Positions 11,233-19,167 of a DNA stretch of 64,000 nucleotides are shown here, one piece after another. Within the stretch, counting starts at the first letter, position 1, and every line of letters begins with the position of its first letter. Both the position numbers and the translations under genes were made by a program. This DNA comes from Gemmatimonadales bacterium (GTDB taxonomy: Bacteria > Gemmatimonadota > Gemmatimonadetes > Palauibacterales > Palauibacteraceae): the NCBI GenBank assembly GCA_009838765.1, contig VXQX01000086.1, forward strand, positions 1 through 64,000, written 5' to 3'. The notes under the pieces are model-generated. The model was not told the DNA's origin, searched no databases, and was given only the letters and a program-made list of their open reading frames with translations.

Positions 11233-11649
11233 CTACGAGACGGTCGGCGCTTCGAGTCCCGCCGCTCGTGCCGCGTCCCCGAGAGCCCGATCCAGCGTGG
11301 CAAGCGGCAATCGCATCCGGATGGCCAGTTCCAGATACATGGCATCGTAGACGGAGAGCCTGTGCGTATGGGCGACTTCGAGCACTGGTCCACGGATGCG
11401 GGATGTGGAAGCGGGATCGATCGTGAGCGGCAGCGCTTCCAGGTTTCGCCAGATCCGCGGCCAGTCGGTTTCGGCGATCCGCCCTCGGCGCGTACCGACG
11501 AGCAGCACGTTCGCGACCTCGACCGGCCACAGGGACGGAACGAACGCTCGGCCCTCCCTCAGGGCATCCCGGAGCCGAGCGGTCTCCTCGGTCGCCTCGT
11601 CCGGGAACACCCAGGCCATCGTGACGGAACAGTCGAGCACGAACGTCAA
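11233..11649 (-). CDS. vapC: PIN-domain ribonuclease toxin, VapC family
   Basis: 138 residues, normal for VapC. The PIN acidic residues are visible: Asp6 (FVLDCSV), Glu in WPVEVANVLL, Asp in SVYDAMYLELA and Asp in LATLDRAL. These bind Mg2+/Mn2+ for cleavage of RNA, typically tRNA or rRNA. The gene overlaps the antitoxin stop by four bases (ATGA), so translation is coupled. Toxicity would be neutralised by the upstream antitoxin. Confidence 0.93.
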   Translation of the reverse strand: MTFVLDCSVTMAWVFPDEATEETARLRDALREGRAFVPSLWPVEVANVLLVGTRRGRIAETDWPRIWRNLEALPLTIDPASTSRIRGPVLEVAHTHRLSVYDAMYLELAIRMRLPLATLDRALGDAARAAGLEAPTVS

Positions 11650-11888
11650 CGCCGGCGACCCTCCTCGATCATATCCCGAACGGAGAGCCCGCCGAGACTG
11701 TGCGTCTCCTGGAACGCCTTCAGGTCGTCGATCGCCGCTTGAACCTTGTCCGGGTCGGTCGGACGGAAGGGGATCAACTCCGCAACCGGACGGCCGTGTC
11801 TCGTGATGACGAAGCGCTCCCCCGTCTGCACGCGCCGCAGGAGGCGGGGCAGGTGCGTCTTGGCTTCAAAGGCGCCGATGTCCGGCAT
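11646..11888 (-). CDS. vapB: Phd/YefM-type antitoxin of the VapC toxin
   Basis: 80 residues from the ATG at 11888, which has GAGAGGGAAC upstream. MPDIGAFEAKTHLPRLLRRV and GERFVITRHGRPVAELIP are typical of the Phd/YefM DNA-binding fold, and the C-terminal half (LGGLSVRDMIEEGRR) is the toxin-binding tail. It represses its own operon and inhibits VapC. An in-frame start at 11921 would place the start inside the putative operator, so it is disfavoured. Confidence 0.9.
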   Translation of the reverse strand: MPDIGAFEAKTHLPRLLRRVQTGERFVITRHGRPVAELIPFRPTDPDKVQAAIDDLKAFQETHSLGGLSVRDMIEEGRRR

Positions 11889-11920
11889 GACGTGTTCCCT
11901 CTCTCGAAATCCAGATTCCA

Positions 11921-11937
11921 ACTAGACTGATACTAGT
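11921..11937 (-). promoter_or_regulatory. Candidate operator of the vapBC operon
   Basis: An inverted repeat ACTAG-N7-CTAGT, overlapping the palindrome ACTAGT, lies 33 bases upstream of the antitoxin start in an AT-richer patch. Autoregulation through such a site is usual for Phd-family antitoxins; that this particular repeat is the operator is inferred. Confidence 0.45.
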
Positions 11938-12255
11938 CCGAATTGGCGAGACCACGCAACGTTCCCGCGTGGCGCACGCACCCCATTCTGGCTCCGGCGC
12001 GACGTTGACGCAGAATGCTTCAGCCCGCCCGACCAGGACATCGCGGGTGCCACGCGGCCTCGGCAGTTCTGAACGGTGGAAAGTCGCCGTCACCCGACAA
12101 CTACGCACCGGGAAACGACATTGCATGCGGTCCGGCTCTGCCCCAACGTGTCACACAATCCGGCAGGGCCAGCACGATGTCCTCGTTCCGCCGGAACGGA
12201 TTGCCGGGCGAGCCGTCGCTGACCGACCACGACAGGACGACGATCATGGATCATA
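11938..12255. other. Gene-free stretch between vapBC and the peptide island
   Basis: No convincing coding frame, RNA or mobile-element end was seen. Short open frames here have no recognisable sequence and no ribosome-binding site. Together with 12256-12331 it forms the largest gene-free gap in the window and marks the switch from GC-rich flank to the less GC-rich island. Confidence 0.6.
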
Positions 12256-12290
12256 CGAATCGAGCGATAATCGCTATGCGAATCGAGGCT
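12256..12290 (+). promoter_or_regulatory. Repeated CGAATCGAG motif and palindrome upstream of the peptide operon
   Basis: CGAATCGAG occurs at 12256-12264 and again at 12279-12287, 23 bases apart. Between them is the palindrome GCGATAATCGC, whose GATAAT resembles a -10 box. The C39 peptidase gene starts about 45 bases downstream. The same motif occurs once more at 16396-16404, just before the AraC-type regulator, suggesting a shared operator. Confidence 0.45.
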
Positions 12291-12331
12291 AACCGACCGG
12301 CCCTAGTTGTTGCGACTACGGAAGCATAGAA

Positions 12332-12922
12332 GTGCGCCTCCGTCGGAAGACGCTCGCCGTATTGTTCCTCGCTGGGATCGGATCTGCTTCCGCCGGGGCT
12401 GCTGGGATGTCGTCGGATCCGCTTGTGCTGTGGAGGTCCATGGCCTTCGTCAAGGCAAAGGTTGGTGGCGCCGACTTCAGGCCGTCCCGGGATGTGATTC
12501 GCCAACGGTCATTCCACGACTGCGGCCCGGCGGCACTCGTGAACTACCTGACAGTACTGGGCGCAGCCTCAATACCCGCACCGGACTCCATCGCTGCTGT
12601 AGCAGGCACCACTTATTCAGGAACCGCTTTACGCGGGCTGGTCGTGGCAGCTCAGGAAGTTCTGGGGTTCAGACCGGTGGTGGGACGCTTGGATCCTTCA
12701 CGGATCGGAGTAGACCATTTGCCTCTACTTGCGTGGTTTGATAAGCGCCACTTCGTCGTCGTCGCCGATCGCGACGCCGATGGGCGCTTCACCGTTCTCG
12801 ACCCGTTGCTGGGACGCTATGTGCTCTCCCCAGACAAACTGACGCGCCGATGGACCGGCGAGGCCATGTGGGTGCCGCCGGAGCATACACGTGTTCGGGG
12901 TTCACCGTTCCCTTCATCGTAG
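12332..12922 (+). CDS. Secreted C39-family cysteine peptidase
   Basis: 196 residues from GTG 12332 (GGAAG upstream). A signal peptide (about 1-24) is followed by a C39 domain: oxyanion Gln58 and nucleophile Cys64 in QRSFHDCGPAAL, catalytic His140 in DKRHFVVVADRD and Asp157 in FTVLDP. C39 domains normally form the N-terminus of bacteriocin exporters and cut leader peptides. Here the domain stands alone and is exported, so it would act in the periplasm or outside. It is the first gene of a run with two small peptides, a thioredoxin-like protein and an ABC transporter. Processing of those peptides is inferred from position. Confidence 0.85.
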   Translation: MRLRRKTLAVLFLAGIGSASAGAAGMSSDPLVLWRSMAFVKAKVGGADFRPSRDVIRQRSFHDCGPAALVNYLTVLGAASIPAPDSIAAVAGTTYSGTALRGLVVAAQEVLGFRPVVGRLDPSRIGVDHLPLLAWFDKRHFVVVADRDADGRFTVLDPLLGRYVLSPDKLTRRWTGEAMWVPPEHTRVRGSPFPSS

Positions 12923-12933
12923 GAGGCAACAGA

Positions 12934-13215
12934 ATGAAAAGAACAATGATCGCCTTGGCCCTCACCCTCACCTCGGTGGTGGGATCCATGAAGGAGCAAC
13001 CGGTGGCTCCGGCGACACCGATGCCTACCCCCACCCCAGAGGTCGTGGGCACGGGTTGGGTGGCCGCCATGGCCTGCGCCGGGTGCGTGAGCGTCGCCGG
13101 TCTAACCGTTGCTAGTGGCGGCTGGATAGCCTTGGCGGCCGCCGCCATCACAAATCCGAAGGGATTGGCCGTAACGGCAGGATGCATCGGTGCGTGCGTC
13201 CGAGCGTTTGATTGA
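12934..13215 (+). CDS. Small secreted four-cysteine peptide A (candidate bacteriocin-like precursor)
   Basis: 93 residues from ATG 12934, with a perfect AGGAGG seven bases upstream. A Sec-type signal (about 1-18) is followed by a Pro/Thr-rich spacer (APATPMPTPTPE), then VVGTGW at 37-42. The hydrophobic Gly/Ala-rich core has Cys48, Cys51, Cys84 and Cys88, with NPKG before the last pair. Peptide B, encoded next, shares VVGTGW-x5-C-x-G-C and the CxxC...CxxxC layout. I know no named family; the look is that of a hydrophobic disulfide-stabilised bacteriocin, somewhat like halocin C8-type peptides, but this is a comparison only. It lies 11 bases after the C39 gene. Confidence 0.8.
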   Translation: MKRTMIALALTLTSVVGSMKEQPVAPATPMPTPTPEVVGTGWVAAMACAGCVSVAGLTVASGGWIALAAAAITNPKGLAVTAGCIGACVRAFD

Positions 13216-13249
13216 GAAGCTTGACCGAAGGACTTGAGGAGGGTGTATC

Positions 13250-13564
13250 GTGAAGAAGATTACGCGTGGAATTGCAACCCTGTTTCTCTGTGCGACGTTG
13301 ACCGCTACTTTCGTCGCAGTGCCGCCGGTTACGGGGAGCACAGGACAAGTCTTGACCGATCTACCGGCGCTTGCGGAGGCGGCGTCCGGAGGCGACGAGG
13401 TCGTTGGTACCGGCTGGCTGGATAAGCTTGCCTGCATCGGTTGCATGGCTGGCATCGGCTTCGTGTCGGGTGGGACCGTAGTGGGCTTCCTGGCAGTTGC
13501 TACGATCTTTCCTGAGGGAGTCGTAGCCTGTGCGATGGGGTGCTATCTCGCATACAAGGAATGA
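13250..13564 (+). CDS. Small secreted four-cysteine peptide B (paired with peptide A)
   Basis: 104 residues from GTG 13250, with GAGGAGGG upstream. The signal peptide (about 1-30) ends VTGS, like VVGS in peptide A. A spacer (LTDLPALAEAASGGDE) precedes VVGTGW at 51-56. The core has Cys62, Cys65, Cys94 and Cys98, plus FPEG before the last pair; an additional Cys14 lies in the signal. It contains a GG before the core, but peptide A does not, so a classical double-glycine leader shared by both is unlikely. The two peptides probably arose by duplication and may act together. Confidence 0.8.
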   Translation: MKKITRGIATLFLCATLTATFVAVPPVTGSTGQVLTDLPALAEAASGGDEVVGTGWLDKLACIGCMAGIGFVSGGTVVGFLAVATIFPEGVVACAMGCYLAYKE

Positions 13565-13596
13565 CTAGCTGAGCCTTCAACAAATCGCTCATTTCC

Positions 13597-14154
13597 GTGA
13601 CGGTGGAGCGTCGTTTGGCGGCGGTTGGCCCTACGCTACCGGTCTGGCAGCCGAGGGCCGCCGCCTTGGGCGTCATCACTGGAGTAATAGCTCTCGCTGT
13701 GTCCTCCCTCTGGCTTGGCCGCAGCTCCATTGCGGCTCGGACTCCCGACGCACCGCCGGTGCTGTCCCGTCAGGTCACGCCGAACGTCATCGAACTGGCA
13801 CTCGATGAAGAACCTGCGGGGCTCACAATTCTGCTCTACGTTACGGAGGAATGTCCGTATTGCCGTGAAGAACTTCAGCTCTGGAGTGAGATGCACGCTC
13901 CCGGACGCAAAGGCGTGCCGCGCATCATCATTGTGTCGCCATCGCCGCTTCCCGCCTCGCATCGACTGCCACCGGCGAAGCTGGTTACCGATACGTCCGG
14001 CCTCCTGGGTCGTGAGTTGGGCGTGCGGGCGGTGCCCTCGCTCTTCGTCGTGGACGCCACGGGCACCGTGATTGAGGCTCGCGCCGGTGTCAGCAAGCCC
14101 GGCAGGATCAAGGCTCTCCTGCACGGCACGACCTTCCACCAGCATCTGCCATAG
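13597..14154 (+). CDS. Membrane-anchored thioredoxin-like protein (TlpA/MauD type)
   Basis: 185 residues from GTG 13597. One transmembrane anchor (about 22-40) is followed by a periplasmic thioredoxin fold with active site Cys86-Pro-Tyr-Cys89 (EECPYCREEL) and the cis-proline region VRAVPSLFVVD. It would form, reduce or shuffle disulfides outside the cytoplasm. It lies 32 bases after peptide B, so the four-cysteine peptides are its most likely substrates (inference). CPYC is also seen in glutaredoxins; the rest fits TlpA/MauD better. Confidence 0.85.
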   Translation: MTVERRLAAVGPTLPVWQPRAAALGVITGVIALAVSSLWLGRSSIAARTPDAPPVLSRQVTPNVIELALDEEPAGLTILLYVTEECPYCREELQLWSEMHAPGRKGVPRIIIVSPSPLPASHRLPPAKLVTDTSGLLGRELGVRAVPSLFVVDATGTVIEARAGVSKPGRIKALLHGTTFHQHLP

Positions 14155-14162
14155 CGACCTCG

Positions 14163-14813
14163 ATGGGTAGGCCGTCTCCGTCTCCGTTGCGACGCATTAG
14201 GCGTCAACTCCTCTACATCGTACCGGATCCGGCGGATATCCAGAGCAGCGCCCCGGTACTTGTGCCGTTCTTGATCGTCGTCATTATGAACTTCATTGGT
14301 GCTCGGGCCGTCCGCAATCTAGTTGCTCCGCCGGGTCAGTCAGCGACGGCTATTGACCTGTTGTTCAATCTGTTAGCCTTCCTTAGTCCTATCATAATCC
14401 TGGTTAAGGCCCTAGCAGCTACCACCGTCACCTGGGCGGTCCTCACGCTGATGTCGGTACGGGCGCGGCTTCGCACTCTCATGTCGATTCACATGTACTG
14501 TGCCATGCCATTAGCCCTCCCTCCAATTGTAATGACGCTGTTTGTCCGTTATGGGGGCGCGGGATCGTCAGAGCTTCAGAATCTCCGCATTCCCTTAGGC
14601 TTGGATTTGCTTCTTGATCCTGGCCTCAGTCCCGCGGCCGTCGCCCTCGTACAACAAGTGACGTTTTTTCACGTCCTATGGGCGATTCTGCTGTGCTGGT
14701 TGCTCCGCCGGGGCGCGGACGTCCCGGGTAGGACAGCACTCGTCGTCGCTTTGGCTCTTTGGGGACTCGGCACCGGATTTGCCGTAATCAGGGCAATGGC
14801 GTTACCTGCTTGA
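14163..14813 (+). CDS. Polytopic membrane protein of the peptide island
   Basis: 216 residues with about five hydrophobic segments, for example VLVPFLIVVIMNFIGA, LLFNLLAFLSPIIILVKALA and VLWAILLCWLL. No family was recognised; the topology recalls Yip1-like or ABC-accessory proteins. It starts eight bases after the thioredoxin-like gene and 30 bases before the ABC ATPase, so a role in export or immunity with that transporter is likely. The DNA is clearly less GC-rich than the flanks. Confidence 0.7.
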   Translation: MGRPSPSPLRRIRRQLLYIVPDPADIQSSAPVLVPFLIVVIMNFIGARAVRNLVAPPGQSATAIDLLFNLLAFLSPIIILVKALAATTVTWAVLTLMSVRARLRTLMSIHMYCAMPLALPPIVMTLFVRYGGAGSSELQNLRIPLGLDLLLDPGLSPAAVALVQQVTFFHVLWAILLCWLLRRGADVPGRTALVVALALWGLGTGFAVIRAMALPA

Positions 14814-14843
14814 CGTTCAACATCCGCTATTCTCGGAGAAGTC

Positions 14844-15563
14844 ATGATCACCGATGACGTCAGGATCGAACTGCGATCAGTATCCGTGAAGTATCCGCTG
14901 TTCGAACTCCAGCCTCTCGACCTTCACCTTGCGGCGGGGGAGCGGGTGGCCCTAGTGGGTCCAAACGGGGCCGGGAAGACCACGATCCTTCGAGCGCTTG
15001 CTGGCCGACTCCCGTCATATGGGGGTGAGATTCTATTCGATAATGTAGAGGCCCGCACGCTGCTGCGTCGCCTCAAGAACCACGTCGGGGTCATGCCGGA
15101 AAATCTCCTCTGCTATGGCTGGATGACCGTCCGGCAACACTTCGACTTCATGACGCAGTTCTTTGATGAGTGGGATCGCGAATATGAGACCGCACTAATA
15201 GACCGATTCGAGATTCCAGAGAAGGGAGTTCTGGCGCAACTGTCAAACGGCACGCGAGCCAAAGTCGCCTTCGTGTCGGCCGAGGCCTTCCGGCCTCCCG
15301 TCCTGCTCCTTGACGAGCCGACGGCGGGTCTGGATCCGGTCATGCGTCGGACTCTCATTGATGCAGTAATCGATATCGTCGACGCGGATCGGCGGAGGCT
15401 CGTCCTGTTCTCGACTCACATCCTTGAAGATGTCGAATGGCTCGCTGAGCGTGTGCTGGTAATGATTGAGGGACATCTCAAGGCTGACTGCTCGGTGGAT
15501 GAAATACGAACAAACGGCCCGACCCTACCAGCGGCGCTGTATACACTCCTGGAGACTGAATGA
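14844..15563 (+). CDS. ABC transporter ATP-binding protein
   Basis: 239 residues, one nucleotide-binding domain. Walker A is GPNGAGKT (39-46), Walker B is LLLDEP with TAGLDP following, and the switch histidine is in STHILED. The signature motif is LSNGTRAK instead of LSGGQ, with Asn and Thr at positions usually Gly and Gln; this is common in the multidrug/bacteriocin-immunity (CcmA/YtrB) group. The stop overlaps the permease start by four bases. It may export or protect against peptides A and B. Confidence 0.92.
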   Translation: MITDDVRIELRSVSVKYPLFELQPLDLHLAAGERVALVGPNGAGKTTILRALAGRLPSYGGEILFDNVEARTLLRRLKNHVGVMPENLLCYGWMTVRQHFDFMTQFFDEWDREYETALIDRFEIPEKGVLAQLSNGTRAKVAFVSAEAFRPPVLLLDEPTAGLDPVMRRTLIDAVIDIVDADRRRLVLFSTHILEDVEWLAERVLVMIEGHLKADCSVDEIRTNGPTLPAALYTLLETE

Positions 15564-16267
15564 ACCTGCGACACGTTAGCACTCTGGTTCACTTAGAGGG
15601 TCGTCGGGGCGGACGCCTGTTAGCCCGCATGTATCTGTTTGGATTGGCGCTGATGGTCGTCTTCGCGGTGCTCGGGAGAGCCTCGGGGGAAAATATTTTG
15701 GCCGTCATCATGGGAGGGACCATCGGAACGGTCCTGCTGATCCCGCTCACAGTCGGCCGCGACAAGGTTGAGCGGACGCTGGAATTCCTGCTATCTCTGC
15801 CGGTGACTGTACAGGAACTTGTGGCGGCCAGATTCGCCGCCGCCGCGCTTAGCCTCCTTCCTGGATCAGTGGCGACGGGCGTGGCACTCGCGCTGCTCCC
15901 GCTTCCCCTTGAACTCGGATTCATGGAGGGAATCCCGGCATTCGCAATAGCTTTCGCGTTCTGGATGCTCTTGACAGTTGTGGCCTGGATCCTGGCTGCG
16001 TTCGCTGCGGCTTTCGATCTGTCGACTGCGGTCGGCTGGCCGCTGGGTATTTTCGTGGGCCTTTGCCTAATCTTACCTTGGACTATTCGTACGTTCGGTC
16101 CGAGTGATCCTGGTCAGGCGCTCGTGTGGTTTCTTCTGCAACCGTTCGCGGGAGCGGTGCTTGCTGCCGTGGCGACGGTGGCGTTGATTGCGACCTCGGT
16201 GGCCGCGTTCTTGCTCGCGTGCAGGGGGTTTGTAACCTACACGGAGCGTGGCGAGACACCTCTGTGA
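15560..16267 (+). CDS. ABC-2 type transporter permease
   Basis: 235 residues with six hydrophobic segments, translationally coupled to the ATPase gene. The loop GRDKVERTLEFLLSLPVTVQELVAARFAA is split between the first and second helix groups as in ABC-2 permeases, where the ERTLEFLLSLPV pattern is typical. Together with the ATPase, and perhaps the membrane protein at 14163, it forms one transporter for export or self-immunity. Confidence 0.88.
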   Translation: MNLRHVSTLVHLEGRRGGRLLARMYLFGLALMVVFAVLGRASGENILAVIMGGTIGTVLLIPLTVGRDKVERTLEFLLSLPVTVQELVAARFAAAALSLLPGSVATGVALALLPLPLELGFMEGIPAFAIAFAFWMLLTVVAWILAAFAAAFDLSTAVGWPLGIFVGLCLILPWTIRTFGPSDPGQALVWFLLQPFAGAVLAAVATVALIATSVAAFLLACRGFVTYTERGETPL

Positions 16268-16394
16268 TGTGCGGCATTGGCGGCCAGACACGATGGATCG
16301 GTTCGTCGTTTGCAGCCGGTCCTACTAGGCGGAGCTCGGCCGGTCCGCCGCCATCGCAACCTGATCCGAGTCGAGTGTATCCGGGTGCGACCCC

Positions 16395-16407
16395 GCGAAT
16401 CGAGGCT
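16395..16407 (+). repeat. Second copy of a 13-bp repeat bounding the peptide island
   Basis: GCGAATCGAGGCT occurs here and at 12278-12290, in direct orientation, one copy just upstream of the peptide operon and one just before the AraC-type gene. It contains the 9-bp CGAATCGAG motif. It could be a regulator-binding site or a target duplication left by insertion of the island; the sequence alone cannot decide. Confidence 0.5.
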
Positions 16408-16415
16408 GATACCAC

Positions 16416-16934
16416 ATGATCCCCCGTCCGAATCCCCCGACCTTCCTTGACGTCGTGCACCCGTTTCTTGAGGCATGCCCCGGACCGACTGCGGCCGCTC
16501 GGGGCTTGAGGATTGCCGCCCTCCAGCCGATCAAGGGAGTTCCCGGTTTGTCGGCGACGGGAAGAAACGGCTTTTCAACTGACAAGTTGGGGACTTTGGA
16601 CGGTAGGCAATACCTCCGCACGCTGGGAGATATAGCCCAACACGTTCCGTGCAAGCCCGAGTACTTGTCCGAAGCGGCGCGGCGAAGAGGGTACAGGTAC
16701 TCCCACGCTCTCCGCTGGATCCGCTTTTTGCATTTCATGGCGCTCAAGGCCGAGGGGTATCCCACGCAGCAAATCGTGTACCCGCTCGGTTTCTCGGATG
16801 CCGCGAGCGTGACCCGGTTCGTGAAGCGCCTCCATGGCCGCACTCTCCGCCAGTTGCCGTCCGTGCCGCTCTCCTTCTGGGTCCGGCGCGCCGTTGAAGA
16901 CGTGTTCCTAGACCTCCGCCGGTCAGGCGCGTAG
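16416..16934 (+). CDS. AraC-type helix-turn-helix protein
   Basis: 172 residues. The C-terminal half contains one recognisable AraC-type helix-turn-helix (ALRWIRFLHFMALKAEGYPT, then IVYPLGFSDAASVTRFVKRL, then G and P). The N-terminal half is not recognised and is short for a ligand domain. It follows the ABC genes on the same strand after a 148-base gap, and a CGAATCGAG motif precedes it, so it is the likely local regulator. Confidence 0.7.
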   Translation: MIPRPNPPTFLDVVHPFLEACPGPTAAARGLRIAALQPIKGVPGLSATGRNGFSTDKLGTLDGRQYLRTLGDIAQHVPCKPEYLSEAARRRGYRYSHALRWIRFLHFMALKAEGYPTQQIVYPLGFSDAASVTRFVKRLHGRTLRQLPSVPLSFWVRRAVEDVFLDLRRSGA

Positions 16935-16998
16935 TGAGGCACGGCACCGAAAGCTCCTGGGACGGCGGACAGCGATTGGCATGACCTGTGGCTCCCAT

Positions 16999-19167
16999 TC
17001 AGAAGCCGATGGACCTGGACACCTTCGCGGCGAAGACGCGCTCGACGGTCATGCCGGCGGCCATGTCGCGACGCTCGGTGTAGACGAGGAAGACGTCGCT
17101 GAGCGGTGAATACAGGTAGTTGAAGCGCACGTTCGTCACGAACTGGTCCTCGGCCGCATTGTACTGGACGAAGGCGCTCGCGAAGACCTTCGTCGAGAGG
17201 CCGTAGTCGACCCGACCCCCGAAGACGTCCGCCGTGAACGCCCCGTCCGGGAGCGAAATGTCGTTGTGGTTCGCCGAGAGATCGACGGAGAGGTGATGGC
17301 TCGGCCGCCACATGAGGCCGCCCGACAGCGACGTCAGCGTCCCGTCGAAGAACCCGCCGCGCTCGACCCGGACGAATCCCGTCAACGCCCGGCCCGGCGC
17401 CGACCGGTACTGCACCGAACCCGAACCGAAGTTGTAGCGCCCGATGGGAACCGTCCCGTCCGATGAAACGCGAAACGGCTGCCGCAGGAGTTCGAACCGG
17501 TCCGTGTAGTCCAGCGTGAGCCCGCTCCCGTTCAGGAACGAGACCCCGAACCCCGCCGTCCGCCTCCGGGTCACGAGGACGGACGCGAGGTCCTGGACGT
17601 AGTCGACCTCGACCCAGGGATTGACCTCCTGCACGCCGGGCACGGGAGGCCGCGGGTGGAGACCCACCGTCGCGTAGCTCTGACGGATGTCGCGCCGGCG
17701 CACGAAACCCACCGTGGGGTTGAAATCCTCTCCCACGTGGCGCCACAGCGCGGACACGTCCCACAGTTCGTCGCGCCAGCCGGCCCACATCCGGCCCGCG
17801 ACGGCGTTCCCGTCGGCATCCGGCGAGTCGGTCCAGGCGAGGAACGGGGCGAGGAGCAGCGACGGGAGCGGCCTCAGGTTCGCATCGAACCCCACGTTGC
17901 GGTTGAAGTCGGGATAACCCTCGATGTCCGAGCCCGTCGCCTCCCGGTTGATGAAGATCGCCCCCACGTCCGACGTCCCGAACACGCTGCGGCGCGCCCG
18001 CATGACCGAGAAGTTCTCGGCCGGGAGGCCGCGGCCGGACCGGGTCTGGAGGTTCATGAGGCCGACCTCGAACCCGCCCGTCCGGCCCGTGAGCCGCGCC
18101 CCGCCGAGGATCGGTATGGGCTCCCCCCGCCCCGTGAGTCCGATGCGGCGCGAGTGGAAGAGGGTGAGGTCGCGCAGCGAGACGCCGGTCCGGTAGCTGC
18201 GCTCCGACTGGTCGCCGAAGGCGAAGGTGCCGGAGTTCTCGACGAAGAAGTCCCGTTTCTCCGGAAAGAAGAGCGGGAAACGGGTCAGGTTGACCTGCTC
18301 CTGGTCGACCTCCACCTGGGCGAAATCCGTGTTGTACGTGAGGTCGAGCGCCAGCCCCGGTGTGACCCCGAACTTGATGTCGAACCCGATGTCGGCCTGG
18401 TTGCCGGCGCGCCCTTCGTCGATCAGCGTCCCGGTCTGGTCCTGCGCGAGGGCGTAGGGCTTCACCCGCAGGTTGAGTCCCGGCCCCACGCCCCGAAATC
18501 CGGTCAGCGTCCCGGCCTTCGACATCTTGTGGATCTGGTCGCGCCGGTCGAGCGGGGCCCAGAACGTGTCCTCCGCCTTGCGCCGGATGCGGCGCAGGAT
18601 CTGGAGTCCCCACGTCTGGTCCTCCTCCGAAGGGTTGAAGCGGAGCGTGGAGAAGGGGATCTCGATCTCCACCGTCCACCCCTCGTCGTCTCGGGCCGTC
18701 TCGACGCGGATGGGGCCTTCCCACGCCTGGTTCTCGGAGCGGCTGTCGTCGAAGAGCTGGACGTCCTTGAGCGCCCCGCCGGGGTTCACGAGGAACATGA
18801 ACCCGTTGCGGCGGTCGAGGTACGTATCGAGCGCCACGCCGAAGACGTCCGACGATCCGCTGTTGAAGTCCTGCTTCAGGCTGGAGATGAAGTAGCGCTC
18901 GGGCTCGGAGTCGTGGCAGATCGCGCCGATGTAGAGGGCCCGGTCGTCGTAAGCGAAGTAGACGACGGTGTTCTCGGTCGCGGGCGCCCCGGTGTCGGGA
19001 CGGGACTGGACGAAGCCGGTGAGGGGCTGAGCCTGCCGCCAGACGGGATCGTCGAGGCGGCCGTCCACGGTGGGCGGCGCATCGGTGCGCAGGGCCGCAG
19101 CGGTCGGGCGGGGCGCGGACTCCACCGCGATCCGGGCGGGCCCCTCCCGACTCGGCTCCTGTGCCAT
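16999..19167 (-). CDS. DUF5916 outer-membrane protein with N-terminal CBM9-like domain
   Basis: 722 residues from ATG 19167. Residues about 20-220 form a carbohydrate-binding family 9-like domain (TVDGRLDDPVWRQAQPLTGF, DDRALYIGAICHDSEP, FMFLVNPGGALKDVQ, WTVEIEIPFSTLRF), followed by a DUF5916 beta-barrel-like region ending in an aromatic residue (SRSIGF), typical for outer-membrane insertion. Upstream of the ATG the frame remains open and encodes what looks like a signal peptide (SLRFVPLILLPGSLAPAGAMA), but no ATG, GTG or TTG precedes it before the upstream gene's stop. The true start may therefore be a CTG near 19278. Ligand unknown. Confidence 0.85.
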   Translation of the reverse strand: MAQEPSREGPARIAVESAPRPTAAALRTDAPPTVDGRLDDPVWRQAQPLTGFVQSRPDTGAPATENTVVYFAYDDRALYIGAICHDSEPERYFISSLKQDFNSGSSDVFGVALDTYLDRRNGFMFLVNPGGALKDVQLFDDSRSENQAWEGPIRVETARDDEGWTVEIEIPFSTLRFNPSEEDQTWGLQILRRIRRKAEDTFWAPLDRRDQIHKMSKAGTLTGFRGVGPGLNLRVKPYALAQDQTGTLIDEGRAGNQADIGFDIKFGVTPGLALDLTYNTDFAQVEVDQEQVNLTRFPLFFPEKRDFFVENSGTFAFGDQSERSYRTGVSLRDLTLFHSRRIGLTGRGEPIPILGGARLTGRTGGFEVGLMNLQTRSGRGLPAENFSVMRARRSVFGTSDVGAIFINREATGSDIEGYPDFNRNVGFDANLRPLPSLLLAPFLAWTDSPDADGNAVAGRMWAGWRDELWDVSALWRHVGEDFNPTVGFVRRRDIRQSYATVGLHPRPPVPGVQEVNPWVEVDYVQDLASVLVTRRRTAGFGVSFLNGSGLTLDYTDRFELLRQPFRVSSDGTVPIGRYNFGSGSVQYRSAPGRALTGFVRVERGGFFDGTLTSLSGGLMWRPSHHLSVDLSANHNDISLPDGAFTADVFGGRVDYGLSTKVFASAFVQYNAAEDQFVTNVRFNYLYSPLSDVFLVYTERRDMAAGMTVERVFAAKVSRSIGF

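Follow-up and report, generated by a model that had tools for sequence, protein, structure and literature searches.

A run of closely spaced, co-directional genes in the window (the whole stretch of 64,000 nucleotides (nt) of a Gemmatimonadales bacterium, contig VXQX01000086.1, that was analysed) raises the question of whether two small secreted peptides and the genes around them constitute one system, and what such a system may do. An earlier note on this DNA had proposed a disulfide-containing bacteriocin-like pair, an interpretation that the present analysis supports, with bacteriocin function itself remaining putative. Seven of the genes, hereafter the cassette, recur together in identical order, and we read them, with a probability of roughly 60%, as a bacteriocin-like system of Gemmatimonadota, complete in itself, with two and sometimes more peptides that would kill competitors.

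The cassette spans 12332-16267, all on the plus strand, with intergenic gaps of 8-34 nt and a 4 base pair (bp) overlap between the ATPase and permease genes. Its components are the following (aa, amino acids):

12332-12922, plus strand: stand-alone C39 peptidase of 196 aa with an N-terminal signal or anchor (PF03412, E=1e-14; alignment)
12934-13215, plus strand: pep1, a 93-aa precursor with an N-terminal hydrophobic signal, a VVGTG junction motif and a hydrophobic core, CxxC preceding CxxxC (alignment)
13250-13564, plus strand: pep2, a 104-aa precursor with the architecture of pep1 (alignment; AlphaFold2)
13597-14154, plus strand: membrane-anchored thioredoxin-like (TlpA/DsbE-like) protein with a CPYC active site (Redoxin, 2.2e-6; dsbE, 5.2e-6, under the cut-off)
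14163-14813, plus strand: Yip1/YknW-like multi-pass membrane protein (homologue matches to YknW_fam and Yip1)
14844-15563, plus strand: ABC transporter ATPase (ABC_tran, 1.9e-24; NF047565, 3.3e-34)
15560-16267, plus strand: ABC-2 type permease (PF13346, 1.1e-6; alignment)

The eight genes that the earlier note had described as one run, i.e. these seven, lying within 34 nt of one another, and an AraC-type gene, are all present on the plus strand. Its identification of the C39, thioredoxin-like, ABC ATPase and AraC proteins agrees with the matches to PF03412, Redoxin (with the CPYC motif), ABC_tran and HTH_18, and its two membrane proteins are both there, one being the ABC-2 permease (PF13346) and the other YknW/Yip1-like. 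Its starting point, 12256, had to be corrected: the C39 gene starts at 12332, and the inserted block that carries the cassette runs from about 11985 to 16998.

Conservation of the cassette was analysed with loci from three sources: a pep2 search of 298 genomes of the phylum, a scan of GTDB contigs with the C39 alignment (chosen because the peptide alignment was too variable), and a search of 395 genomes with a profile of 35 peptides. The neighbours of each locus were scored with profiles of every cassette gene. The complete seven-gene cassette, in identical order and strand, is found in 18 independent loci (17 besides the window), which belong to at least four families by the program's grouping and, where a name is given, are Gemmatimonadetes, Gemmatimonadota, Longimicrobiales or Gemmatimonadales; incomplete loci include one that ends at a contig edge and one with a single peptide. 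Since the order is kept in 18 complete loci, a chance neighbourhood was rejected. The profile of the membrane protein gave 13 matches with E<1e-65 in the 298 genomes, followed by a gap to E=2e-17, and all 13 strong matches lie in genomes carrying the peptides. Peptide homologues devoid of the linked genes would, according to the earlier note, speak against a joint system. This was checked and the idea held up: the C39, thioredoxin-like, membrane protein, ATPase and permease genes accompany them in identical order. C39 matches in Ruegeria, Planctomycetes, an archaeon and Myxococcales show no adjoining peptides, no linked ABC transporter could be made out in the two loci of more distant YknW-like proteins that were examined, and a weak peptide match in Myxococcales (L110) was rejected for its lack of adjoining cassette genes. 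Samples of Fidelibacterota, Acidobacteriota, Myxococcota and the phylum of the Ruegeria genome yielded nothing beyond one Fidelibacterota genome, a weak negative with no positive control.

Concerning the peptides, the claim that pep1 and pep2 are paralogous and share four aligned cysteines is borne out by their alignment, with 31% identity and a common GTGW motif, the shared elements being EVVGTGW, CxxC and the later CxxxC. The four cysteines are invariant in the pep1 alignment of 11 loci, as well as in the aligned members of pep2. In a tree with few columns and many open forks, the first peptides of the loci (the pep1 line) form a clade of their own (support 98/86), the other peptides being more varied. 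There is one pep1 per locus and 1-4 pep2-type copies, up to a maximum of five peptides, and both types co-occur in the 18 complete loci. Paralogues from the same locus differ sharply between leader and core, with identities of 0.88-0.93 vs 0.33-0.46 in L037 and 0.86 vs 0.33 in L036, with the VxGxG motif, VVGG(Q) in some copies, marking the point of change. The peptides would thus seem, judging from their sequences, to behave like processed products. Cores are 47-52 aa long, hydrophobic (mean Kyte-Doolittle of about 1.4) and near neutral. AlphaFold2 predicts three helices for the pep2 core (56-73, 77-86 and 88-103), with block means of the predicted local distance difference test (pLDDT) mostly at 84-88, and a low-confidence leader; pep1 is similar, with lower confidence. 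Membership of a known peptide family was rejected, as the 35 peptides gave no coherent or significant match in Pfam or NCBIfam and the peptides have no match in the PDB, either by sequence or by fold.

These properties could also belong to secreted signals, i.e. pheromones matured by the C39 peptidase and sensed by kin, with no toxin involved. Secreted, processed peptides in which the core varies and the leader stays constant fit signalling as well, and in the window an AraC gene lies close by; however, neither a receptor nor a regulator is conserved alongside the cassette, the AraC gene is missing from the other loci, and very hydrophobic cores of 50 residues next to a dedicated ABC transporter with a Yip1 partner better fit a membrane-active product, which makes signalling improbable.

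Some loci show variants of this arrangement. Two short extra peptides in L036 (7036-7606) share the leader and have aromatic, cysteine-rich cores unlike those of other peptides. Two divergent cassettes (L107, 6233-12732, and L108) encode C39 and two peptides with GGGW/GGGG junctions, then a secreted protein without CxxC in the thioredoxin position, a membrane protein, an ATPase and a permease, past which two MacB-like permease genes are found. On a contig of Candidatus Neomarinimicrobiota (Fidelibacterota), C39 and two peptides with nearly identical leaders are present (L058, 7016-9985), one peptide being apparently frameshifted and a membrane protein running off the contig.

In the two putative maturation proteins the active-site residues are conserved: the catalytic Q, C, H and D of the C39 peptidase, which has no fused ABC domain, are invariant in an alignment of 11 homologues, and so is the CxxC of the thioredoxin-like protein in 12 homologues. 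Among secreted C39 peptidases, the nearest precedent is FapD of the Pseudomonas Fap operon, a stand-alone periplasmic enzyme that is exported by Sec and needed for secretion (PMC5557850), and the window C39 weakly matches C39_FapD (E=0.012). In view of this likeness, the peptides might instead build a surface structure such as an adhesin or fibre, in which case the role of the periplasmic C39 would match that of FapD in amyloid secretion. We regard this as quite unlikely. Fap substrates belong to an amyloid secretion system whose pore is the beta-barrel FapF (PMC5557850), whereas neither a FapF-like outer-membrane pore nor amyloid repeats were found among the genes recurring with the cassette; moreover, the predicted core is helical, not beta, and both core diversification and the ABC/Yip1 genes would be left unexplained.

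Together, the two membrane proteins and the ATPase make up one ABC-2 transporter plus a Yip1/YknW-like partner. Homologues of the partner match NCBIfam YknW_fam in nine of 12 cases (best 6.4e-12) and Pfam Yip1 in three (best 6e-6), while the permease is of ABC-2 type (PF13346), unlike the MacB-type YknZ, and the recurrent cassette genes include neither a membrane-fusion protein nor a C39-ABC fusion. In Bacillus, YknWXYZ confers protection against the disulfide peptide toxin SDP (PMC4887032). Because of the YknWXYZ/SDP and Pmt analogies, we infer that the module would provide self-protection against membrane-active peptides, their export being the less likely role. An exporter, with the extra peptides or a further, unrecognised gene providing protection and with the product still an antibacterial pair, is a doubtful alternative: the resemblance of the ATPase to PmtA, an exporter of hydrophobic peptides, and the absence of any separate immunity gene that we could see speak for it, but the precursors bear Sec-like signals and both C39 and the thioredoxin-like protein look periplasmic, and therefore ABC export is not needed to reach them.

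The bacteriocin-like system that we favour could work as follows. Sec would export the pep1 and pep2 precursors via their N-terminal signals. Two disulfides would then be formed or corrected in the periplasm by the anchored thioredoxin-like protein, presumably pairing the CxxC of helix 1 with the CxxxC of helix 3, elements whose cysteines are conserved, as is the CxxC of the protein itself. The secreted C39 peptidase would then cut the conserved leader at VxGxG / VVGG, i.e. at the motif where the observed split between leader and core falls. The released hydrophobic, neutral, helical peptides of ~50 residues may act jointly on the membranes of competitors, and the ABC-2 transporter, together with the Yip1/YknW-like protein, would clear them from the membrane of the producer, resulting in self-protection.

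It should be noted that several points weigh against this scheme. Killing, processing and disulfides are all deduced from sequence; the membrane protein of the window reaches 21 bits against YknW_fam, with a cut-off of 110, and therefore it is YknW-like and not a YknW; and the best curated match of the ATPase, the phenol-soluble modulin exporter PmtA (NF047565), scores 118 bits with a cut-off of 350. There is no outer-membrane export component in the cassette, some extra peptides keep one or two core cysteines only, and the cores are neutral rather than cationic. GxxxG occurs in 8 of 11 cores of each line, with no significant enrichment over shuffles (P=0.056 and 0.46), so that a glycine zipper gained no significant support.

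How does the cassette relate to known systems? In class IIb two-peptide bacteriocins, the C39 domain that cuts the leaders is cytoplasmic and fused to the ABC transporter that exports the peptides, of which GxxxG motifs are typical. Two small, complementary, leader-bearing peptides and a linked C39-type peptidase are common to them and the cassette, which does encode two different peptides (18 complete loci, with pep1 as a separate clade), but lacks the double-glycine leader with C39-ABC fusion, since its junction is VxGxG, with GG in some copies only; its C39 is separate and secreted (196 aa), and Sec-like signals, the GxG motif and four cysteines set it further apart. The SKF operon of Bacillus makes a peptide toxin with a radical SAM enzyme and has an ABC-2 type transporter and the thioredoxin-like SkfH. 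The combination of peptide toxin gene, ABC-2 type transporter and thioredoxin-like protein resembles the cassette, which however has no radical SAM gene. To our knowledge, SKF has no stand-alone C39, and SDP no C39. SDP is also an exported disulfide peptide toxin, countered by an ABC transporter with the Yip1-family partner YknW, but it is a single 42-residue peptide with one disulfide, and YknXYZ is of MacAB type and includes a membrane-fusion protein, of which the cassette has none (PMC4887032). The nearest known system in logic is Cdz of Caulobacter (CdzC/CdzD), with two small hydrophobic secreted peptides encoded by adjacent genes in a Gram-negative, often in acquired islands and in variable number (PMC5380434). 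Cdz relies on type I secretion (CdzAB) and on a different immunity protein (PMC5380434), whereas the cassette has a stand-alone secreted C39, Sec-like signals, four cysteines, a thioredoxin-like protein and ABC-2 with Yip1, and its GxxxG is not significantly enriched; no CdzAB-type secretion genes (C39-ABC fusion or membrane-fusion gene) are among its recurrent genes.

The cassette thus probably belongs among the two-peptide bacteriocin-like systems as an undescribed kind, with a putative function. The earlier note knew of no such gene set as a named system; likewise, we found no description of it, or of such a system in Gemmatimonadota, in the open-access library searched, and its peptides match no curated family. 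We would give even odds to a more specific proposal, a new antibacterial two-peptide toxin class from one phylum so far, plus a trace in Fidelibacterota, that combines unprocessed export, thioredoxin-like cross-linking, a periplasmic C39 cut at GxG, ABC/Yip1 immunity, and a constant pep1 with diversifying second partners. For the widespread and hardly studied Gemmatimonadota, the cassette offers a compact, testable gene set and a peptide family without a curated model, as well as an example in which a Yip1-type protein is linked to a peptide system. Its peptides also provide a natural substrate candidate for the periplasmic C39 peptidases, which have been described as a class still to be characterised (PMC5557850).

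Two further features concern how the cassette came to its present site:

11985-16998, no strand: inserted block (genomic island) with the cassette (flank searches, junction alignments, GC)
16416-16934, plus strand: AraC/HTH_18 protein within the insertion (HTH_18, 3.7e-8)

The low guanine-cytosine (GC) content and the transfer claimed for this region both hold. GC of the block is 0.608 vs 0.69 in the flanks, the minimum among 5-kb stretches of the window, and GC at third codon positions (GC3) is 0.62-0.76 for block genes vs 0.86-0.94 for the main flanking genes. The block is missing at the corresponding site in five genomes of the same genus (G046, G059, G209, G200 and G292), which have 0-76 bp between the flanks; in junction alignments the left flank ends at 11938-11984, and the right flank resumes exactly at 16999 in all five. 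These empty sites show, for the site in the window, that the cassette is transferred between genomes as one block; G200 has its own cassette on another contig. Directly left of the insertion, on the minus strand, lies a VapBC-like toxin-antitoxin pair (11233-11921, named by eye), absent at that site in G162, so the spot seems to collect insertions. In one family (L036-L040, L102-L104), genes flanking the cassette on both sides are also common between loci, which suggests vertical inheritance there, unlike in the genus of the window.

A final point is related to the AraC-type gene, 148 nt downstream of the permease gene. In the joint system put forward by the earlier note it was the regulator; the seven genes do recur together, but scoring of the neighbours gave no AraC match at the other cassette loci, and relatives are located elsewhere in genomes, also in the cassette-bearing G060 and G066. 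It was hence rejected as a cassette part; the insertion carries it as a passenger, outside the conserved unit. In a cassette-free genome, the left flank of the matching chromosomal site has a relative of this AraC-type gene (L174, G042:C39:80165-80476) at a distance of ~4 kb.
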